Source: Clostridia bacterium
GTDB taxonomy: Bacteria > Bacillota > Clostridia > Oscillospirales > Acutalibacteraceae
Length of the DNA stretch: 52,017 bases
Assembly: GCA_017416345.1 (NCBI GenBank)
Contig: JAFQCR010000037.1
Coordinates: forward strand, 1 to 52,017
Reading direction: 5' to 3'
Shown here: piece after piece, positions 36,197-47,873 of the stretch
Layout: the number at the start of each line of letters is the position of its first letter
Position numbering within the stretch: the first letter of the stretch is position 1
Position numbers and translations under genes: made by a program
The notes under the pieces: model-generated
Seen by the model: the letters and a program-made list of their open reading frames with translations, nothing else
What the model was told of the DNA's origin: nothing
The model's database searches: none

Positions 36197-36655
36197 ATGA
36201 TAAAATGGGATTGCATCGAAAAGCTTCATGATGAAAGGCTCATCGCGGAATTTGAGCAGGAGATAGGCTGGGTCCTCCCTGAAAGCTATAAGGCATTTGT
36301 AAAGGAAAACAACTCCTGCCAGCCCGAAAAGCGCACCTGTTTTTCGGTCGACGGTAGCGAGGTCGAGCTGAATCATTTTTATAATCTTAACAAGGGTAGC
36401 GTTATAAGTATCTGGGATTTTTACGATTTTCCCGAGGAGGACCGCAAGTGGTTCAAGGAGCAGTACGGCGGCGAGCTGAACGATCATATCGCCTTTGCCG
36501 ATGATGTTGACGGCAATGCGGTCTGCTTTAATAAGGCTGATGGTTCGGTGACCCATTACGACCGTGAGAATGACAAAATGAGCACCGTGGCTCCCGATTT
36601 CACGGCATTTTTAACCGCACTTTATGTGCATGAGACCGACGAAACGGTAGATTGA
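36197..36655 (+). CDS. SMI1/KNR4 (SUKH) family protein
   Basis: 152 residues. LPESYKAFVKENN (about 28-40) is the classic SUKH opening. It continues through FSVDGSEVELNHFYNL, DHIAFADDVDGNAVCFNKADGSVTHYDRE and FTAFLTALY. In bacteria these proteins are often immunity proteins against secreted nuclease or deaminase toxins, but no toxin or secretion gene is nearby, so it is an orphan. AGGAGA precedes the ATG. Confidence 0.88.
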   Translation: MIKWDCIEKLHDERLIAEFEQEIGWVLPESYKAFVKENNSCQPEKRTCFSVDGSEVELNHFYNLNKGSVISIWDFYDFPEEDRKWFKEQYGGELNDHIAFADDVDGNAVCFNKADGSVTHYDRENDKMSTVAPDFTAFLTALYVHETDETVD

Positions 36656-37808: not shown

Positions 37809-38732
37809 TTAAAAGGTTGAAACGATGCTCTTGACGCAATTTTCGGGGGAATAGCTCCAGCGGTCGATGTGCCCGTCCTTTATGAAATAGGTCAAGGGAG
37901 CTTTAGTGCGGTCGGCTTCAAACGAGTCGATTATTATCAGCTTGACCTTCATTTTGTCGGGCAGGATGCTTTTGATGTAAACGCATGTCTTTTGTCCTGC
38001 TTTAACACCGTCCTTCAGCTCGGCAAGGCCTGCAAGGTTGGGTGAAAGCTCAACAAATATTCCGTAAGGCTCTACCGACCGTACAAGCCCCGTGACCGTT
38101 TCGCCCGTGATGAATCGGTCGGCGTTTTGCTGCCACGTGCCGAGAAGCTCCTTCATGGTGAGTGTTATCTTGCCGTCGGCAATGCTTTTTATAACAGCCC
38201 TTATCTCATCGCCTGCCGAAAAACGGTCGCCGGGGTGGGAGATACGTGAGACCGAAATGGCATCTATGGGCAACAGCGCAACACAGCCGCAACCGATGTC
38301 GCAAAAGGCACCGAAGCTTTCAAGGTGGGTCACGGTGGCAGGGATAATATCACCCGGACGAAGGTTTTTGATAAACTCATCGGTGCAGTATTGCTGTGCC
38401 TTGCGTCGGGAAAGCAGGGCAATGCGGCGGCCTTCGCTGTCGGTGGAAAAGCCGTCCACCACAAAGGACACCGGCTTGCCCACACGGGAAATGAGCGCAA
38501 TATCACGCACAAGACCCTCGGCAATGCCGATGGCACCCTCGCATCGGGGGATAATTCCACGGCACACTCCCAGGTCAACGTACAGATTGTGTGCAGGGTC
38601 GCAGTTGGTGGCAAGTCCCTCCAAAACGGTGCCGACTGCGGCGGCCTCCTCGAGCGAACGGAGACTTGATAACGCTTTTCGGTTTTTTATGCTTGTCAAA
38701 GCACGGCCTTCGGGCATAAAAATTCTTTGCAT
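37809..38732 (-). CDS. S1 RNA-binding domain protein (RpsA-like)
   Basis: 307 residues. At least two S1 OB-folds are visible: LRPGDIIPATVTHLESFGAFCDIGCGCVALLPI (about 125-157) and FITGETVTGLVRSVEPYGIFVELSPNLAGLAEL (about 210-242). An N-terminal degenerate S1-like part begins at EAAAVGTVLEGL. It resembles the short ribosomal-protein-S1-like proteins of Clostridia and probably binds mRNA or assists translation. AAAGGTAAG precedes the ATG at 38732. The C-terminal 40 residues (KAPLTYFIKDGHIDRWSYSPENC) fall outside the S1 folds. Confidence 0.88.
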   Translation of the reverse strand: MQRIFMPEGRALTSIKNRKALSSLRSLEEAAAVGTVLEGLATNCDPAHNLYVDLGVCRGIIPRCEGAIGIAEGLVRDIALISRVGKPVSFVVDGFSTDSEGRRIALLSRRKAQQYCTDEFIKNLRPGDIIPATVTHLESFGAFCDIGCGCVALLPIDAISVSRISHPGDRFSAGDEIRAVIKSIADGKITLTMKELLGTWQQNADRFITGETVTGLVRSVEPYGIFVELSPNLAGLAELKDGVKAGQKTCVYIKSILPDKMKVKLIIIDSFEADRTKAPLTYFIKDGHIDRWSYSPENCVKSIVSTF

Positions 38733-38926: not shown

Positions 38927-39403
38927 ATGTCACTCAACAAACGTGAGACCGATTTTTGCAGATTTTTTGTTGCTTGCCGCAACAGCCGTGAGGCGGCCGC
39001 CAAAGCCGGCTTTGCCTTTCCCGAGCGTTCGGGGATACGGCTTTTGGACAAGCAGGCCGTCATTGACGAGATCGACCGTCTGTCCGAGCAGGTCAGGACG
39101 GCTGTTTCGGCGGTGGACGGCTTGAAGCGTATTGCGTTCGGCTCGGTTGCCGATGCCGTGAAGCTGGTGCTGCATCCCGACACCGTTGAGCCTGAAGCGC
39201 TCGACCTTTTTATGGTGTCGGAGCTGAAATGTACCGATAAGGGTGTTGAGGTCAAGTTTTTTGATCGCATAAAGGCACTTACGGCTTTGCTTCAGGTCAC
39301 CGACAGCGCAGAAAGCAACGAAACATCAAGATTTGTCGAGGCTATTTTCAAGGGTGCTTCGGCGATCGAAGGTCTGGGACGGAGTGTGAGCGATGAGGTT
39401 TGA
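38927..39403 (+). CDS. Phage terminase small subunit-like protein
   Basis: 158 residues. The N-terminal helix-turn-helix region (KRETDFCRFFVACRNSREAAAKAGFAFPERSGIRLLDKQAVIDEI, residues 5-49) matches the layout of Terminase_2-type small subunits (crop-and-tail, NsreAAakAGf). It would recognise the packaging site on DNA and load the large subunit. AAGGGG lies 11 bases before the ATG. Its end overlaps the large-subunit start by 11 bases. First of eight tightly packed phage genes. Confidence 0.82.
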   Translation: MSLNKRETDFCRFFVACRNSREAAAKAGFAFPERSGIRLLDKQAVIDEIDRLSEQVRTAVSAVDGLKRIAFGSVADAVKLVLHPDTVEPEALDLFMVSELKCTDKGVEVKFFDRIKALTALLQVTDSAESNETSRFVEAIFKGASAIEGLGRSVSDEV

Positions 39404-40643
39404 ACCCTTTTCAAAAAAGCAGCTGGCAACGCTTTGCTGGTGGGGAAGCAACAGCCCTTACCGTGACAAGGATGCCATAATATGCGACGGAGCCGTGCGA
39501 AGCGGAAAGTCACTCTGTATGTTTGTTTCGTTTATTACTTGGGCAGGATGCAGCTTCCGAAACGCTTCCTTTGCCATTTGCGGACGCACAGCGTCATCGG
39601 TAAGGCGCAACCTTTTACAGCCTTACCTGCCGGTGCTTAAAGACCTTGGTCTTAGGTGCCGTGACGAGGTGTCAAAGGGCAAGATAACGGTTGAAATGAA
39701 CGGCAGGGAAAACACCTTCTGGATATTCGGAGGTAAGGACGAATCATCGGCTTCGCTGATACAGGGAATGACGCTGTCGGGCGTTATGTTTGACGAGGTG
39801 GCGCTGATGCCAAGATCCTTTGTCGAGCAGGCGCTGGCACGTTGCTCAATGGAAGGCTCAAAGTTCTGGTTTAACTGCAATCCGTCCAACCCGTCTCATT
39901 GGTTTTATACCGAGTGGATAAAAAAGTGCAGGCAGAAAAACGCACTTTATCTCCACTTCACGATGAACGAAAACCCGTCGCTGTCCAAGGCGGTGCTCGA
40001 AAGATATGAAAATATGTATTCGGGTGCGTTCTACGAGCGTTTCGTAAAGGGCAGGTGGGTGGCGGCCGACGGAGCAGTCTACCCGATGTTTTCGGATGCG
40101 TGCATGGCCGACTGTCCAAAACAGTGTACACGCTACTATGTTTCGTGTGATTACGGCACGGTCAATCCTGCATCGTTTGGACTTTGGGGCGAGTATCACG
40201 GCGTGTGGTACCGTTTAAGGGAGTATTACTGGTCATCCCGACGTGAGGGTGCACAAAAGACCGATGAGGAATATTACGCCGAGCTTAAAAGTTTGTGCAA
40301 CGGCTGTAATGTTACGGCGGTCATCTGCGACCCGTCGGCGGCATCCTTCATAACGCTTATCAGGCGCAAGGGTGAGTTTTCGGTGATACCTGCCAAAAAC
40401 GATGTGCTGGACGGCATCCGCCGTGTGTCCGATGCACTTAAAAACGGTAAGATCAAGATCTGCCGCGGCTGTGATGACACGGTGCGTGAGTTTTCACTTT
40501 ACCGCTGGGATGAAGGCTCTGTGCGTGACTGTCCCAAAAAGGAAAACGACCACGCAATGGACGACATAAGATATTTTGTTTCCACCGTGCTGTACCGACC
40601 CGAACGCACAAGCGTTGCCGTTGCTGCCAAAAGAAGCCGTTAG
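39393..40643 (+). CDS. Phage terminase large subunit
   Basis: 416 residues, PBSX/T4-like terminase. The ATPase domain has Walker A GAVRSGKS (Lys39) and Walker B VMFDE (Asp134, Glu135), then WFNCNPSNPSHWFY as coupling motif. The RNase H-like nuclease domain shows YVSCDYGT, AVICDPSAASF and NDHAMDDIRYF, so the three metal-binding acidic positions appear intact. It would translocate DNA into a prohead and cut it. Length is normal and no frameshift is seen, which argues against simple decay. Confidence 0.94.
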   Translation: MRFEPFSKKQLATLCWWGSNSPYRDKDAIICDGAVRSGKSLCMFVSFITWAGCSFRNASFAICGRTASSVRRNLLQPYLPVLKDLGLRCRDEVSKGKITVEMNGRENTFWIFGGKDESSASLIQGMTLSGVMFDEVALMPRSFVEQALARCSMEGSKFWFNCNPSNPSHWFYTEWIKKCRQKNALYLHFTMNENPSLSKAVLERYENMYSGAFYERFVKGRWVAADGAVYPMFSDACMADCPKQCTRYYVSCDYGTVNPASFGLWGEYHGVWYRLREYYWSSRREGAQKTDEEYYAELKSLCNGCNVTAVICDPSAASFITLIRRKGEFSVIPAKNDVLDGIRRVSDALKNGKIKICRGCDDTVREFSLYRWDEGSVRDCPKKENDHAMDDIRYFVSTVLYRPERTSVAVAAKRSR

Positions 40644-40661
40644 GCTTCGGAAAGGAATAAA

Positions 40662-41792
40662 ATGGGCACTAAAACTAAAAAAGAAGACCGAAGCCATTCT
40701 GCTTCGGTGCAGACCGCACGTCAGAACCGACATCCGTTTTCGGTGCTTGACCGCCACCGTCCGTTAAGCCTGCCCGAATTTGAGGTGTTTGATGCCATTC
40801 GTGAAGCCGTGCCGATAGTCGGTGCGGCGGTGGATAAGATAATCCGCTTGGTGGGAAGCTTTTCGGTCGAATGTGACAACAAAACGGCCGAGCGTGAGCT
40901 GGCTGTGTTTTTGAAAAATGTCCCGAGCGGTGTTGCAACAGTTGGCATCGACGGCTTTATAGGAAGCTATCTCGACAGCCTTCTTATGTACGGCACCGCC
41001 GTGGGCGAGATGGTGACCGACCGAAGCGGAAACATCGCAGGACTTTACAATGCACCGTTAAAGGGGCTTGAGATAAGGCTGACCGATGACCCGTTCGGGT
41101 GTGAGATATCGGTGCGTGAGCCTAACGGCAAGCTAAGGCCTGTCCGCTATCCCGAAAGGATACTGATGTGTGCCGCCAACCCTACCTCCGATCGACCCGA
41201 GGGCAGGTCGCTTTTGCACGGTCTGCCGTTTGTGACGGGTATACTGCTCAAAATTTTTGACAGCGTGGGCACCAATTTTGAGAGGGTGGGAAATCTCCGC
41301 TATGCCGTGACCTACCGTCCTTCAAACGAGGCCGATGCGACCTTCGGAGCCGACCGTGCCGCCGAAATAGCACGTGAATGGTCCGAGGCCATGAGCGACA
41401 AGGACGGCGTGCGTGACTTTGTGGCTGTGGGCGATGTTGACATCAAGGTCATCGGTGCCGACAACCAGACCCTCGAATGCGAGGTACCCGTCCGTCAGAT
41501 GATGGAGCAGATAGTTGCCAAGACCGGCATTCCTCCTTTTTTGCTGGGACTTTCGTGGTCGAGCACCGAGCGTATGTCGGTTCAGCAGATCGATGTTCTG
41601 ACCTCCGAGCTTGAGTACTACAGAGGCTTGCTTGGCAGTATTATAAACCGCATCTGCCGTGCGTGGCTGAGATCAAAGGGCTATACCTGCAACTTTGAGG
41701 TCAACTGGGACGACATCACCCTGCACGACGAGGTGGAGCAGGCAAGAGCAAGGCTTTTGCGTGCTCAGGCGGCAGAGGTTGAAAACAAGTGA
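40662..41792 (+). CDS. Phage portal protein
   Basis: 376 residues. Portal-type features are DAIREAVPIVGAAVDKIIRLVGSFSVE (about 45-71), a long insertion with SYLDSLLMYGTAVGEMVTD, and the crown-proximal VRQMMEQIVAKTGIPPFLLGLSWSSTERMSVQQIDVLTSELEYYRGLLGSIINRICRAWL (about 280-340), a typical PPFLLG...Q...L portal motif. It would form the dodecameric ring at one capsid vertex. It lies 18 bp after the terminase gene, with GGAAAGGA as ribosome site. Confidence 0.9.
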   Translation: MGTKTKKEDRSHSASVQTARQNRHPFSVLDRHRPLSLPEFEVFDAIREAVPIVGAAVDKIIRLVGSFSVECDNKTAERELAVFLKNVPSGVATVGIDGFIGSYLDSLLMYGTAVGEMVTDRSGNIAGLYNAPLKGLEIRLTDDPFGCEISVREPNGKLRPVRYPERILMCAANPTSDRPEGRSLLHGLPFVTGILLKIFDSVGTNFERVGNLRYAVTYRPSNEADATFGADRAAEIAREWSEAMSDKDGVRDFVAVGDVDIKVIGADNQTLECEVPVRQMMEQIVAKTGIPPFLLGLSWSSTERMSVQQIDVLTSELEYYRGLLGSIINRICRAWLRSKGYTCNFEVNWDDITLHDEVEQARARLLRAQAAEVENK

Positions 41793-41803
41793 GGTGAAAT
41801 TTT

Positions 41804-42766
41804 ATGAAAAACGGAAATATAGGAGATTTCGGCATTCCTACGGAAAATGAGCTTGAGCTTATCAACCGACACACACGCCGAAAGTTTGCGGCCGACGAGC
41901 TGTACGCCTTTTCGGTTGTGCTTTGCGATAACGACATCGACCGTGACCACGAGCGCTTCACCGATGAGGCTTTGGAAAAGCTGGCCGAGCTTTATATCGG
42001 CAAGACCGGTATTTTTGACCATTCTCCCAAGGCCGAAAACCAATGTGCAAGGATATTTTTTGCCGAGGTCAGAGAGATTGAGGGCAGAAAAAACCGCATA
42101 GGTGAGCAGTATAAGCAGCTTTTTGCACGTGCTTATATGCCTAAATCCGAGGCGGGTGAGGAGCTGATACTTTCCATCGAATCGGGCATCAAAAAAGAGG
42201 TCAGCGTGGGTTGCTCAATGGCAACATCACGTTGCTCGGTCTGCGGTCAGCCCTTGGGAGCCTGCCAGCACCGAAAGGGCAGGGTCTACCGTAAGGACGG
42301 TGTTAAGACCATGTGCTATTTTGAACTGTCAGAGCCGACCGATGCCTATGAATGGTCGTTTGTGGCCGTTCCCGCACAGCCTAAGGCAGGTGTGGTCAAG
42401 GCATTTGACAAGGAAAAGGAGATATCGGTGCTGGGCGTTACAAAAACGCTCAAAAACGGTGTCGTTACCTTTTCTGAGGAGGAGGCAACAAACCTTGAGA
42501 AGCAATTTGAGCAGCTTCGCTCTGTAGCGGCTGCGGCAGGTGGATTTTTGCGTTCAAAAAAGGCGTTCATCGTAAAACAGGTCATGCCTTCGGCAACAGA
42601 TACGGCGGTCGATGTGTTTATGAAGCTGCTTGACCGACTTGAGCCCGAGGAGCTTTTCGGACTTTACGCAGAGTGCGAAAAGCAGAATGAACCGATCGCT
42701 TCACAGCTTGCCGTCAAGCGAAGCACCGCCGACAAAAGCAGTAAAAACAGTTATTTTATAGTTTAA
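41804..42766 (+). CDS. Probable prohead protease/scaffold protein
   Basis: 320 residues. The order of motifs fits HK97-type capsid maturation proteases: VLCDNDIDRDHERFTDEAL, GIFDHSPKAENQC (His73 candidate), ARAYMPKSEAGEELILSIESGIKKEVSVGCS (Ser134 candidate in the S-V-G context), then the typical YEWSFVAVPAQP. A four-Cys cluster (CSVCGQPLGACQH, plus a nearby Cys) is inserted after the Ser, and the C-terminal 100 residues (EEEATNLEKQFEQLRSVAAAAGG...) look like a helical scaffold. The assignment rests on motif order and position between portal and capsid. Confidence 0.72.
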   Translation: MKNGNIGDFGIPTENELELINRHTRRKFAADELYAFSVVLCDNDIDRDHERFTDEALEKLAELYIGKTGIFDHSPKAENQCARIFFAEVREIEGRKNRIGEQYKQLFARAYMPKSEAGEELILSIESGIKKEVSVGCSMATSRCSVCGQPLGACQHRKGRVYRKDGVKTMCYFELSEPTDAYEWSFVAVPAQPKAGVVKAFDKEKEISVLGVTKTLKNGVVTFSEEEATNLEKQFEQLRSVAAAAGGFLRSKKAFIVKQVMPSATDTAVDVFMKLLDRLEPEELFGLYAECEKQNEPIASQLAVKRSTADKSSKNSYFIV

Positions 42767-42782
42767 TTTTTTGGAGGAAAAA

Positions 42783-43793
42783 CAAATGAGTTTTGATAAC
42801 ATTACACTTGAAAAGGGAATGTATTCCCACCCCGAAAAGAGCTTTTCCGATATTTTGGAGGAGCTTGACCCCTCGCAGAACTATGTTGGCACCGAGTATG
42901 AGGGCCTTGATGCATTCGGCCGTCAGCTTAAAAGATTCGACATCAAGGTAGCAGGCGCAGGCTCCGATGCCGTCCGCAAATTCTTTGCCACCACCCAGTC
43001 GGCGGCCTTGTTCCCCGAGTATGTTTCCCGTGCCGTAAAGCAGGGCATCGAGGAGGCTGATATGCTGCCCTCCATCGTGGCTTCCACCACCCACATCAAC
43101 AGCCTTGACTACCGCACCATCGCATCGGTCCCCACCGATGAGGAAAAGTCGCTGGTCGATGTTGATGAGGGCGCCGAGATCCCCGAGACCGTAGTCCGCA
43201 CCCAGGAAAACCTTGTCAAGCTTCACAAGCGAGGCAGAATGCTGGTTGCATCCTATGAGGCTTTGAAGTTCCAGAAGATCGACCTCTTCTCGGTAACCCT
43301 CCGCCAGATCGGTGCACACATCGCACGCAGTCAGTTTGCCGATGCGGTCAACGTTCTTATGAACGGTGACGGCAACGACAACGCCGCCGCGGTTATCAAT
43401 GCCGCAGCCTCGGGTGAGCTTTCCTATCAGGATCTTTTGAGCCTTTACGATCAGCTCGATCCGTATACCCTCAACCGCCTTATCATGAGCCCCTCAACCA
43501 TGCTTAAGGTAATGAGCCTTGATGAGTTCAAGAATCCTCTTACCGGCATCAACTTCCAGGGCACAGGCAACCCCGGTAATCCTCTGGGCGCCAAGCTGCT
43601 TCGCTCCAACGCTGTGGCCGACGGCAAGATCATCGGCCTTGATGCAGGCTGTGCACTTGAAATGGTGGTCGCCTCTGATGTAAACGTCGATTACGACAAG
43701 CTTATCGACCGTCAGCTCGAGCGTGCCGTCATCACCACCACCGCAGGCTTTGCCAAGATCTTCAAGGATGCTTCGGCAGTGCTCTCTGTCTGA
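42783..43793 (+). CDS. Phage major capsid protein, HK97-like fold
   Basis: The start is taken at ATG 42786-proximal MSFDN; an upstream in-frame ATG at 42771 coincides with the GGAGG ribosome site and is not used. About 336 residues with the usual progression: a flexible N-arm (about 1-65), FFATTQSAALFPEYVSRAVKQGI, LDYRTIASVPTDEEKSLVDVDEGAEIPE, VKLHKRGRMLVASYEAL and a C-terminal VVASDVNVDYDKLIDRQLERAVITTTAGFAKI. It has no long delta-domain, consistent with a separate scaffold in the preceding gene. It would build the icosahedral shell. Confidence 0.88.
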   Translation, partial: QMSFDNITLEKGMYSHPEKSFSDILEELDPSQNYVGTEYEGLDAFGRQLKRFDIKVAGAGSDAVRKFFATTQSAALFPEYVSRAVKQGIEEADMLPSIVASTTHINSLDYRTIASVPTDEEKSLVDVDEGAEIPETVVRTQENLVKLHKRGRMLVASYEALKFQKIDLFSVTLRQIGAHIARSQFADAVNVLMNGDGNDNAAAVINAAASGELSYQDLLSLYDQLDPYTLNRLIMSPSTMLKVMSLDEFKNPLTGINFQGTGNPGNPLGAKLLRSNAVADGKIIGLDAGCALEMVVASDVNVDYDKLIDRQLERAVITTTAGFAKIFKDASAVLSV

Positions 43794-43797
43794 TGCT

Positions 43798-44169
43798 ATG
43801 GAGCATATTATCAGCATTGACCGTGTGGTAGACCGTTTTCTGGCGCTTGCAGGCGAAGCTTCGGCGGCCGAGGGCAGGATATTTTGCCGTACCGCCGCTG
43901 AAACGGTTGAAAGCTGGGTCGACCGCTCACGGCTTACCGAGGCTTACGGCGAAGGGCTTGACTATGCCGCCGCAACCGTGGCATTTTACCGATTTACGCT
44001 CAAAAATTCGAGCAACGCTCAGTCGGTCAAGGCAGGCGACATCACGGTCACCGATCTTTCCGACCGCTCGGTGGAATTTGCCAAAAGCCTTATGCAGGAC
44101 GCATTAAAGGCGGTTGAGCATCTGTTTAAGCCCAAACGGTTTGCTTTTATGAAGACCGAGGTGGTATAA
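43798..44169 (+). CDS. Head-tail connector/adaptor-like protein
   Basis: 123 residues, helical. RFLALAGEASAAEGRIFCRTAAETVESWVDRSRL is typical of small connector proteins below the portal, and LDYAAATVAFYRFTLKN continues the helix pattern. The ATG at 43798 is four bases after the capsid stop, implying translational coupling. The next gene starts immediately after its stop. Assignment rests on gene order and helical character. Confidence 0.65.
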   Translation: MEHIISIDRVVDRFLALAGEASAAEGRIFCRTAAETVESWVDRSRLTEAYGEGLDYAAATVAFYRFTLKNSSNAQSVKAGDITVTDLSDRSVEFAKSLMQDALKAVEHLFKPKRFAFMKTEVV

Positions 44170-44526
44170 ATGGATTTTAAGGCAGAGACACTTAAATTTC
44201 TTGATTGCCTCGGTGAGGAGGCTACGGTCACGGTGGGGGAGGACAGCTACCCGATAAAGGCGCTCATCCAGCCTATGCGATACAAAAACAAGATGTATCT
44301 TGAGGATGATCGCACCGAGCTTGGCTTTAAAAACGGCGAGTGCTTTTTGTATCTCGGCCCTGCAGAGCCCGATTTTGCAGGGGTGGAAACAAGTACGACC
44401 GTCACCACCAAGCACCGTGTGTATTCGGTCTCCCGTGCCGACCGAATTGCGCTCAAAGGCATCACGCAGTATATCTGGGCGGTGCTTACTCCAAAGTATA
44501 AGGACGGTGCTTTTTATGGTCTGTAA
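44170..44526 (+). CDS. Head-closure-like phage protein
   Basis: 118 residues, mainly beta: YPIKALIQPMRYKNKMYLEDDRTELGFKNGECFLYLGPAEPDF and TTKHRVYSVSRADRIAL resemble head-completion (gp16-type) proteins that close the portal after packaging. The start directly follows the preceding stop, and the next gene overlaps its last codons. Identification is by position and beta-rich profile, not by a unique motif. Confidence 0.6.
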   Translation: MDFKAETLKFLDCLGEEATVTVGEDSYPIKALIQPMRYKNKMYLEDDRTELGFKNGECFLYLGPAEPDFAGVETSTTVTTKHRVYSVSRADRIALKGITQYIWAVLTPKYKDGAFYGL

Positions 44527-44932
44527 AAAACTGATAGATTATCTCGTGGCAACACTTTCGGCCAACGAGGCGCTGACCGATATGACGGTCATCACGGAGT
44601 TCCCTTCGAAAAGGCAGGATCTTCCGCTTGAAAATGCGGTGGTCAGCGTGGGGCTTGAGGGGGTAGACATCACGGGTGTGGGTGATGCTCTGCAGATAGC
44701 CGCCGACGCATCTCCTGTCAATTACACCGTAGGGCTTACGCTGTGCGTGCCAAAGTCGGCAACGGGTGCCGTTTGCCACAGCGCAGTTGATGGCATACTG
44801 TCTGCTTTGGCCACCTTTGTTGCCGAGTATTCGGTCACCGACATCACGGTGGGGCAGATGAAGTACAGCGGCACTTTGGGTGCTCTGACCGTGCCTATCA
44901 CCCTAAAGATCTTTAACGGCAACGCATACTAA
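44516..44932 (+). CDS. Tail-terminator/tail-completion-like phage protein
   Basis: 138 residues: LIDYLVATLSANEALTDMTVITEFPSKRQDLPLENAVVSVGLEGVDI at the start and SALATFVAEYSVTDITVGQMKYSGTLGALTVPITLKIF at the end fit the alpha/beta fold of gp17-type tail terminators. The ATG at 44516 overlaps the upstream stop. It is the last gene of the cassette; a terminator follows 15 bp later. No tail tube, tape-measure or baseplate gene follows. Confidence 0.65.
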   Translation: MVCKKLIDYLVATLSANEALTDMTVITEFPSKRQDLPLENAVVSVGLEGVDITGVGDALQIAADASPVNYTVGLTLCVPKSATGAVCHSAVDGILSALATFVAEYSVTDITVGQMKYSGTLGALTVPITLKIFNGNAY

Positions 44933-44946
44933 ACCACAAAAACAAA

Positions 44947-44978
44947 GGGCTTGGAGTGTAAAAACTCCAAGCTTTTTG
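44947..44978 (+). terminator. Terminator closing the phage head cassette
   Basis: GCTTGGAGT pairs with ACTCCAAGC, then TTTTT. Confidence 0.85.
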
Positions 44979-45084
44979 TGTTTTTATGTTAAATCGGTGT
45001 AAAGTTTTGCGGCAGTTATGCAATAAATACATAAAATAACGTGTAAAAACGTATAAAAAATTAAAAAATGTTATAAAATTTAAA

Positions 45085-45242: not shown

Positions 45243-47873
45243 ATGAGTCACAAGTTTGTTTACCTGTTCTCTGAGGGTGACGCTTCCATGCGTGAGCTTC
45301 TCGGCGGTAAGGGTGCTAACCTGGCAGAAATGACCAAGATCGGTCTTCCTGTTCCCCAGGGCTTCACCGTTTCTACCGAGGCTTGTACCCAGTACTATGA
45401 GGACGGCCGCAAGATCAACGATGATATCAAGGCAGAGATCATGGAGTACATCGACAAGATGGAAGGCATCACCGGCAAGAAGTTCGGCGATAAGACCAAT
45501 CCTTTGCTCGTTTCGGTTCGTTCCGGTGCCCGTGCATCCATGCCCGGTATGATGGATACCATTCTTAACCTCGGTCTTAACGAGGAAGTTGTAGAGACCA
45601 TGGCAGCGATGTCCGGCAACGCACGTTGGGCATACGACTGCTACCGTCGTTTCATCCAGATGTACTCCGACGTTGTTATGGAGGTCGGTAAGAAGTACTT
45701 CGAGGAGCTCATCGACAAGATGAAGGAAGAAAAGGGCGTTAAGCAGGACGTTGAGCTTACTGCTGACGATCTTAAGGAGCTTGCTAACCAGTTCAAGGCC
45801 GAGTACAAGGCTAAGATCGGCAAGGATTTCCCCTCTGATCCTAAGGAGCAGTTGATGGGTGCTGTTGAGGCTGTTTTCCGTTCTTGGGACAACCCCAGAG
45901 CAAACGTTTACCGTCGTGACAACGATATTCCTTATTCTTGGGGTACCGCTGTTAACGTACAGATGATGGCTTTCGGTAACATGGGTGACGATTGCGGTAC
46001 CGGTGTTGCCTTTACCCGTGACCCCGCTACCGGCGAGAAGGGTCTTATGGGTGAGTTCCTCACCAACGCACAGGGTGAAGACGTTGTTGCAGGTGTTCGT
46101 ACTCCGATGCCTATTGCCGAGATGGCCAACAAGTTCCCCGAGGCTTTTGCAGAGTTCCAGAAGGTCTGCGCAACCCTCGAGGATCACTACAGAGATATGC
46201 AGGACATGGAGTTCACCGTTGAGCACGGTAAGCTCTTCATGCTCCAGACCCGTAACGGTAAGAGAACCGCTAAGGCTGCATTGAAGATCGCTTGTGACCT
46301 CGTTGACGAGGGAATGATCGACGAGAAGCAGGCTGTTGCTATGATCGACCCCAGAAACCTCGACACCCTTCTCCATCCTCAGTTCGATACCAAGGCTTTG
46401 AAGGCTGCTGTTCCTGCAGGTAAGGGTCTCGGCGCATCTCCCGGTGCTGCTTGCGGTAAGGTTGTATTTACTGCTGAAGATGCTGAAGTCTGGAACGCCC
46501 GTGGCGAAAAGGTCGTTCTTGTCCGTCTTGAGACCTCTCCCGAGGACATCACCGGTATGAAGGCTTCTCAGGGTATCCTCACCGTCCGTGGCGGTATGAC
46601 CTCTCACGCAGCCGTTGTTGCCCGTGGTATGGGTACCTGCTGTGTTTCCGGTTGCGGCGACATTATTATGGACGAAGAGAACAAGAAGTTCACTTTGGCC
46701 GGTAAGGTATACAACGAGGGAGACTACATCTCCATCGACGGTTCTACCGGTAATATTTATGATGGCATCATCCCCACCGTTGATGCCGAGATCGCAGGCG
46801 AGTTCGGCCGCATCATGGCATGGGCCGACAAGTACAGAACCCTTAAGGTTCGTACCAACGCTGACACTCCTGCAGACGCTAAGAAGGCTCGTGAGCTTGG
46901 TGCTGAGGGTATCGGTCTTTGCCGTACCGAGCATATGTTCTTTGAGGCAGAGCGTATTGCAGCATTCCGTGAGATGATCTGCTCTGACACCGTTGAGGGT
47001 CGTGAGGCAGCATTGGCTAAGATCCTGCCCTATCAGCAGGGCGACTTCGAGAAGCTTTATGAGGCTCTCGAGGGCAACCCCGTTTGCATCCGCTTCCTTG
47101 ATCCTCCGCTTCATGAGTTCGTACCCACCGAAGAGGCTGACATCAAGGCTTTGGCAGAGGCACAGGGCAAGACCGTTCAGGATATCAAGAACATCATTAC
47201 CGGTCTCCATGAGTTCAACCCCATGATGGGTCACCGTGGCTGCCGTCTTGCAGTTACCTATCCTGAAATTGCAAAGATGCAGACCACCGCTGTTATCCGT
47301 GCAGCTTTGAATGTTAAGAAGGCTCATCCCGATTGGAATATCGTTCCCGAGATCATGATCCCTCTTACCGGCGAAGTTAAGGAGCTCAAGTACGTTAAGG
47401 ATGTTGTTGTTGCAACTGCTGACGCTGAGATCGCTGCCGCAGGTTCTGACCTCAAGTACGAGGTAGGTACCATGATGGAGATCCCCAGAGCTTGCTTGAC
47501 CGCTGACGAGATCGCAAAGGAAGCTGAGTTCTTCTGCTTCGGTACCAACGATCTTACTCAGATGACCTTCGGCTTCTCCAGAGATGACGCAGGTAAGTTC
47601 CTTACCGCTTACTATGACACCAAGATCTACGAGAACGATCCGTTCGCAAAGCTCGACCAGACCGGTGTTGGTAAGCTGATGGATATGGCAGTTAAGATGG
47701 GTAAGGTTACCCGTCCTTCGATCCACTGCGGTATCTGTGGTGAGCACGGCGGCGACCCTGTTTCCGTTGAGTTCTGCCACAAGATCGGCTTGGATTACGT
47801 ATCCTGCTCACCCTTCCGTGTGCCCATCGCACGCCTCGCCGCCGCCCAGGCTGCTATCAAAGAGTCTAAGTAA
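45243..47873 (+). CDS. ppdK: Pyruvate, phosphate dikinase
   Basis: 876 residues, full length. The N-terminal ATP-grasp part opens with LLGGKGANLAEM. The phosphohistidine domain carries GGMTSHAAVVARGMG with catalytic His455. The C-terminal PEP-binding barrel has GIGLCRTEHMFF, PPLHEFVP, GTMMEIPRA, GTNDLTQMTFGFSRDD and the catalytic HCGICGEHGGDP. It interconverts ATP, Pi and pyruvate with AMP, PPi and PEP, serving PPi-dependent glycolysis or gluconeogenesis in anaerobes. Codon use (GGT, GCT, GAG, AAG) is more biased than in neighbours, as for a highly expressed gene. A second version of its last codons lies at 48463-48501. Confidence 0.98.
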   Translation: MSHKFVYLFSEGDASMRELLGGKGANLAEMTKIGLPVPQGFTVSTEACTQYYEDGRKINDDIKAEIMEYIDKMEGITGKKFGDKTNPLLVSVRSGARASMPGMMDTILNLGLNEEVVETMAAMSGNARWAYDCYRRFIQMYSDVVMEVGKKYFEELIDKMKEEKGVKQDVELTADDLKELANQFKAEYKAKIGKDFPSDPKEQLMGAVEAVFRSWDNPRANVYRRDNDIPYSWGTAVNVQMMAFGNMGDDCGTGVAFTRDPATGEKGLMGEFLTNAQGEDVVAGVRTPMPIAEMANKFPEAFAEFQKVCATLEDHYRDMQDMEFTVEHGKLFMLQTRNGKRTAKAALKIACDLVDEGMIDEKQAVAMIDPRNLDTLLHPQFDTKALKAAVPAGKGLGASPGAACGKVVFTAEDAEVWNARGEKVVLVRLETSPEDITGMKASQGILTVRGGMTSHAAVVARGMGTCCVSGCGDIIMDEENKKFTLAGKVYNEGDYISIDGSTGNIYDGIIPTVDAEIAGEFGRIMAWADKYRTLKVRTNADTPADAKKARELGAEGIGLCRTEHMFFEAERIAAFREMICSDTVEGREAALAKILPYQQGDFEKLYEALEGNPVCIRFLDPPLHEFVPTEEADIKALAEAQGKTVQDIKNIITGLHEFNPMMGHRGCRLAVTYPEIAKMQTTAVIRAALNVKKAHPDWNIVPEIMIPLTGEVKELKYVKDVVVATADAEIAAAGSDLKYEVGTMMEIPRACLTADEIAKEAEFFCFGTNDLTQMTFGFSRDDAGKFLTAYYDTKIYENDPFAKLDQTGVGKLMDMAVKMGKVTRPSIHCGICGEHGGDPVSVEFCHKIGLDYVSCSPFRVPIARLAAAQAAIKESK

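Follow-up and report, generated by a model that had tools for sequence, protein, structure and literature searches.

Gene content of the cassette

We analysed a 52,017-nt stretch of DNA from a Clostridia bacterium (contig JAFQCR010000037.1, hereafter the window; its genome is coded G000, and other G and L codes denote genomes and loci). At positions 38927-44932 we confirmed a cassette of eight phage head and packaging genes without tail, lysis, regulator or integrase genes, as a preliminary description of the sequence had proposed. The genes are co-directional and lie between a host S1-domain gene and ppdK (Table 1). The description had also read all frames as unbroken, the operon as ending at a terminator followed by ppdK, and the catalytic residues of the terminase and protease as intact, and these points held: 8/8 frames were open, the hairpin and ppdK were located, and the residues in question proved invariant in alignments. 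The Walker A, Walker B and nuclease Asp positions of TerL fell in columns that were invariant across 18 sequences; the active-site positions were also invariant in the protease alignment.

Table 1. Coordinates of the cassette genes and their neighbours in the window
Feature	Position	Strand	Support
S1-domain RNA-binding gene, host, divergent left neighbour	37809..38732	-	PF00575 1.2e-17
TerS, small terminase, 158 aa	38927..39403	+	PF03592 2.5e-10, phrog_2606
TerL, large terminase, 416 aa	39393..40643	+	phrog_2 2.2e-48, PF03237, PF17289
Portal protein, 376 aa	40662..41792	+	phrog_30703 9.1e-134, alignment
Prohead protease, 320 aa, with C-terminal helical scaffold-like part	41804..42766	+	
Major capsid protein, 335 aa	42786..43793	+	phrog_3922 3.6e-99, PF25209 3.7e-15
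g6, small neck/connector-type protein, 123 aa	43798..44169	+	position conserved in relatives; no family match
g7, small head-closure-type protein, 118 aa	44170..44526	+	position conserved in relatives; no family match
g8, tail terminator, 138 aa	44516..44932	+	AlphaFold model pLDDT 80.9; lambda gpU 3fz2 E 6e-6, TM 0.65
Intrinsic-terminator-like hairpin and T run, operon end	44942..44979	+	16 pairs, loop 6
ppdK, host, right neighbour	45243..47873	+	also after cassette in L034, L035, L036

The protease was matched in VIA-align and BFVD structure comparisons; Foldseek gave no match to the PDB at E 0.001, and searches of PDB sequences with profiles of the protease, g6 and g7 gave no credible match. 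An invariant, zinc-knuckle-like Cys-x2-Cys...Cys-x-His set was also seen in the protease. The TerS of the window retains an N-terminal helix-turn-helix-like part, as judged by eye from the alignment. Searches of the window locus revealed no sheath, tube or baseplate gene, and the tail terminator g8 is kept without any tail gene after it. No conserved gene replacing the tail was seen in the window's lineage, where g8 is followed by ppdK (the window, L034, L035 and L036) or by other genes. Inspection of the gene list by eye showed no integrase or mobility gene beside the cassette, and this list together with family searches yielded no integration or replication gene accompanying the structural operon. 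SOS control through LexA-like boxes upstream of TerS was considered and is unsupported, because such boxes occurred only in L099 and L100. Predicted sigma-70-type promoters were uninformative (5 found versus 4.5 in shuffles). Elsewhere in the window, positions 36197-36655 hold a SUKH (SMI1/KNR4) immunity-type gene near a tRNA-Val (PF09346, 2.5e-20).

Chromosomal site, selection and inheritance

The S1 gene lies upstream of the cassette in the window, L034, L035, L036, L048 and L082, and ppdK follows it in the first four of these. The same head-only genes, flanked by S1 and ppdK, were present in two of the genus's three other species examined and in a genome from a second genus; this is the conserved arrangement that the preliminary description had proposed to look for. 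A complete prophage at the S1-ppdK site was not seen in any congener. G002, the genus's fourth species, retains S1 and the beginning of ppdK (at the contig end), and a 585-aa gene replaces the cassette; this state is a loss of the cassette.

Selection was measured as the ratio of nonsynonymous to synonymous substitution rates (dN/dS) by Nei-Gojobori counts in six pairs from tailless clades, with some values undefined because of saturated dS; for one pair (L083/L084) the contigs end after g6 and the tailless state is taken from kinship. The results showed that dN/dS of the head genes was 0.026-0.279 wherever defined, with 0.036-0.079 for TerL, 0.046-0.114 for the portal, 0.049-0.111 for the capsid and values up to 0.279 for the fastest small genes. 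The cassette genes are thus under purifying selection in tailless relatives, and the per-gene ratios well below 1 that had been expected of a domesticated locus were found there. Within the window's own genus dS was at least 1.0 or saturated, and the defined ratios were 0.08 for TerL, 0.20 for the portal, 0.10-0.14 for the capsid, 0.13-0.19 for the protease, 0.23 for g7 and 0.19 for g8. Identity within the genus ranged from 78-83% for TerL and capsid down to 27-39% for g8, compared with 62-69% for S1 and 97% for ppdK.

Of 398 genomes searched in the window's family, 227 (from 82 of 135 genera) had a portal match, with a single match in 224 genomes and two in the other three. Across the order 70 of 394 genomes matched (families coded f1, f2, f7, f14, f15 and f26), and at class level 8 of 391 did, every one inside the window's order, at a threshold (E 1e-20) that could miss distant portals outside it. 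Scanning named genomes yielded at least 544 relatives; the 80 that were retained include isolates of Faecalispora, Anaerotruncus, Merdimmobilis, Pseudoruminococcus and Caproiciproducens (Oscillospiraceae or Acutalibacteraceae in NCBI) and contain no Faecalibacterium record.

To compare inheritance, host (rpoB) and element (portal plus TerL) trees were built with FastTree for 59 genomes; we had chosen 60 among those with available loci, rpoB was found in 59 of them, and G411 was left out. The two trees had 34 of 56 splits in common, while 1000 tip shuffles gave a mean of 0.25 and a maximum of 5. Of the well-supported element splits (26 at 0.95 or above), 24 recurred in the rpoB tree and one was contradicted by a supported host split. 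The Mantel r was 0.780 for the 59 genomes and 0.753 within the 42 family members, and none of 9999 permutations was as high. These results show that the element was inherited by co-divergence with its hosts across an order, not by phage spread.

Among 50,697 phage records there were six portal matches and five capsid matches. The close ones were the same five unverified human-faecal scaffolds for both proteins, and the sixth portal match was a Microcystis phage at 29%. Four "Bacteriophage sp." faecal scaffolds from Mexico (L006, L005, L287 and L288; MT835508, MT836604, MT835769 and MT835952) resemble pieces of bacterial chromosome bearing the element, and in L287 and L288 bacterial-looking genes (by eye) lie beside it. 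A childhood-obesity virome study reportedly sequenced virus-like particles and removed reads matching bacteria (PMC8361208); these four records may be products of that study. A capsid search of plasmids gave two matches, the better one in Tepidibacter. Apart from the five faecal scaffolds, portal and capsid searches of phage records and the capsid search of plasmids found no carrier of the cassette.

Tail loss and fusion of a fibre domain

The state of the tail was followed with iterated profiles run on the loci. At 103 loci (G022 is counted twice, as L094 and L275) the sequence extended 7.5 kb or more downstream of the portal. These loci comprised 20 with sheath and baseplate, 44 with baseplate and no sheath, 7 with partial sets and 32 with neither; L048, tallied as head-only, retains a tube gene, and in L085, L093, L106 and L129 no g8 was recognised and a gene labelled chapN is retained. 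The gap ahead of the LysM baseplate gene never exceeded 911 bases in the 64 tail-bearing loci and held no same-strand frame longer than 229 aa, so a tape-measure gene of the usual size is missing from them.

A close match to the baseplate gene J was detected in 127 of the 398 family genomes and in 125 of the 227 portal carriers. Its absence from the remaining 102 carriers (36 genera) is an upper bound, since the cut-off of 1e-50 may miss diverged J genes. Whole-genome searches for J and hub in eight tailless carriers (G001, G003, G132, G034, G195, G065, G290 and G227), with G027 as a positive control, found nothing. In the window's genome the sole J match lies in a separate prophage. This is L195 (contig C32, 52001-72000), an ordinary tailed prophage with an 818-aa tape-measure-like gene, as seen by eye. 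A contractile tail with tape measure was not found at the window locus, and J or hub matches elsewhere in the genome were confined to the C32 prophage. When J presence was mapped on the rpoB tree (G368, with J on another contig, scored as J-bearing), about 6 changes were needed, compared to at least 12 in 1000 shuffles; the J-less state clusters on this tree, in seven groups. These results indicate tail loss from an element that is spread across the order and in other lineages still has its tail module. Four loci of family f26 (L180, L183, L189 and L177) are reduced in a further way, with head genes and hub and no J at the locus; they might be kin of the Ruminococcus packaging events described in PMC12946183.

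An extra domain of about 130 aa is attached to the tail terminator in 21 of the 37 head-only loci. A fused tube was tried as an explanation of this C-terminal extension of g8 and was unsupported; the extension then matched fibre. It is homologous to 40 separate reading frames (39 genomes) located after the baseplate genes of tail-bearing loci, with E down to 8e-35. The remaining 16 head-only loci, the window included, have g8 without the fibre domain (12) or no recognised g8 (4). The dN/dS of the fibre domain was 0.07-0.23 (defined in 7 of 9 pairs) versus 0.016-0.09 for the terminator part; the domain evolves faster yet is constrained, as would be expected of a receptor-binding part. Searches for the fibre domain found none in G001, G003, G132, G085, G034 and G183 and only a weak match in G000, within the C32 prophage. 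Taken over J, hub and fibre, the searches found no baseplate or fibre of the element's family for the window's lineage.

Other fusions and truncations were observed among the relatives. Neck and tube genes are repeatedly fused, with g8-tube fusions in L052, L079, L102, L114 and L115 (hhalign E 3e-7) and g7-tube fusions in L042, L044, L046, L051, L096 and L141 (hhalign E 2e-17 and 3e-24). TerS appears by eye to be without its N-terminal DNA-binding-type part in L042, L044, L047, L096, L176, L178 and L190, and in L082 the TerS frame starts beyond this part.

Function of the cassette and comparison with known systems

The evidence identifies the cassette as a packaging head that derives from a tailed phage, is inherited vertically and is kept under selection. 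We read it as a chromosomally fixed particle resembling a gene transfer agent (GTA), reduced to its head and packaging host DNA, with a probability of about 0.72. The preliminary description had listed a domesticated, GTA-like capsid among its possibilities, and the shared S1/ppdK site, the low dN/dS and the empty J and hub searches in the eight tailless carriers support it. That the window's particle would package host DNA is suggested by the intact motor, by the finding of nothing that would replicate or move the element, and by the precedent of Faecalibacterium particles (PMC12946183).

A particle of this kind might work as follows. A fraction of cells would express the operon, and TerS and TerL would feed fragments of host DNA via the portal into capsids that the protease matures. 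The vertex would be closed by g6, g7 and the terminator, and particles would leave on cell lysis through genes encoded elsewhere. Delivery in the window's lineage, if any, would need some other adhesin or the release of DNA, because the searches revealed neither a baseplate nor a fibre of the family there; in other tailless lineages the terminator-fused fibre domain may serve as the adhesin. We hold more tentatively, at somewhat under even odds, a wider picture of an ancient GTA lineage that co-diverged with a Clostridia order and repeatedly shed its tail. The window's branch would then be a tailless, fibreless DNA-packaging head, and another branch, with its receptor-binding fibre moved to the terminator, a minimal tailless delivery particle.

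Several observations weigh against the GTA-like interpretation. The cassette is dispensable, as it was lost in G002 and the portal search drew a blank in 171 of 398 family genomes. The portal frame of G132 (L036/L066) contains an in-frame TGA close to the C-terminus, the remaining cassette frames found in that genome being open. TerL matches 986 phage records, the best named at about 51%, and is thus shared with ordinary phages. Selection on the window's own copy is gauged only roughly, because dS is high or saturated in the genus and g8 is just 27-39% identical. The locus yielded no lysis or regulatory gene. The genome-wide searches covered J, hub and fibre only; the fibre search was not exhaustive, because it also missed the baseplate-bearing G116, and a diverged fibre could be overlooked. 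FpGTA of Faecalibacterium, the closest published system, was compared by its description, and the window's TerS keeps a DNA-binding-type N-terminus that the FpGTA protein, as described, does not.

The alternative that survives best, though we consider it unlikely, is a selected particle with another job, such as PBSX-like kin lysis or competitor killing, phage interference by competition in capsid assembly, or intracellular DNA storage. Purifying selection shows only that some function exists, and DNA injection is hard to picture in a lineage for which no family tail or adhesin was found; on the other hand, a tailocin requires a tail, the invariant motor and nuclease positions of TerL point to DNA packaging, and the fibre domain on the terminator of other tailless loci points to cell attachment there. 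A satellite that packages itself and borrows the tails of a helper phage, as the preliminary description had also considered, would explain the head and packaging genes with a retained tail terminator, and the C32 prophage could be such a helper. This is very improbable: no integrase or mobility gene was seen by eye, the site is fixed, inheritance is vertical and follows the host, the congeners G001 and G003 have no J, hub or fibre match, and the phage and plasmid records searched hold no carrier but the five faecal scaffolds. The description's third candidate, a recently truncated prophage, taken together with a decaying one, could draw on the lack of tail, lysis, integrase and regulator genes, the TGA in G132 and the loss in G002, and is slightly less probable still, given eight intact frames, dN/dS far below 1 in tailless relatives, a tailless state common to several genera on a tree that follows the host, and no congener seen with a full prophage at the site.

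The element is a phage-derived packaging system, nearly always single-copy, in several families of one Clostridia order, and it tracks the host tree. The series of loci shows stages from a sheathed tail to a bare head, and the named isolates among the carriers offer a test of packaging. It becomes testable whether a capsid without a tail can carry DNA from cell to cell. The element also supplies candidate genes for gut DNA-packaging signals that were reported without an operon, for example in Ruminococcus callidus (PMC12946183). According to the same paper, few GTAs have been studied in detail, mostly in Alphaproteobacteria.

By the features that define GTAs, we found phage-derived structural genes that are chromosomally fixed and vertically inherited, purifying selection in tailless relatives, and no integration or replication genes. 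RcGTA and the other alphaproteobacterial GTAs are vertically inherited under purifying selection, do not self-replicate and keep their tail. The cassette resembles them in inheritance and selection, and several relatives resemble them in having TerS without the DNA-binding part; it differs in the host phylum, in the tail and in the window's TerS, which retains the DNA-binding-type part. PBSX has a contractile tail, a tape measure and lysis genes, and its Xkd genes run TerS-TerL-portal-protease-capsid-neck-sheath-tube-LysM-hub-baseplate, an order that matches the tailed relatives of the cassette. It differs from them in its tape measure, for which the 64 tail-bearing relatives have no room, and from the window, which has nothing after the terminator gene. 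PBSX packages 13.4 kb host fragments and has a tailocin role (as cited in PMC12946183).

The closest phage-type relative found is the Tepidibacter hydrothermalis plasmid NZ_CP120734.1, a 38.8 kb circular, phage-type molecule whose capsid is 43% identical. It has homologues of TerS, portal, protease, a small pre-capsid gene, capsid, g6-g8, sheath, tube and baseplate in the same order, and differs in a 796-aa tape measure, a tail protein, a holin, an endolysin-type M15 peptidase and further genes; even at E 10, no profile match was obtained for its TerL or fibre.

Our literature searches turned up PMC12946183 alone on GTAs of this group, and no order-wide family with tail loss came up among their results. 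As far as the available text of that paper goes, FpGTA I/II is a chromosomally fixed TerS-TerL-portal-scaffold-capsid operon without replication genes in 12/12 Faecalibacterium genomes. The Faecalibacterium particles are about 40 nm in size, have no identifiable tails and hold about 9 kb of DNA, and TerS is described as having no DNA-binding domain. In some strains a further operon encodes baseplate, fibre, receptor-binding protein, holin and endolysin. The operon is reported for Faecalibacterium alone, not as an order-wide, co-diverging family with repeated tail loss (PMC12946183). For the cassette, searches for the J, hub and fibre of such a second operon found none in G001 and G003 and in G000 only matches in the separate prophage, lysis genes and a diverged second operon not having been sought. 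The two are alike in being a terminase-portal-scaffold-capsid operon fixed in the chromosome of gut Clostridia, and seven relatives of the window, though not the window itself, share with FpGTA a TerS without the DNA-binding-type part.

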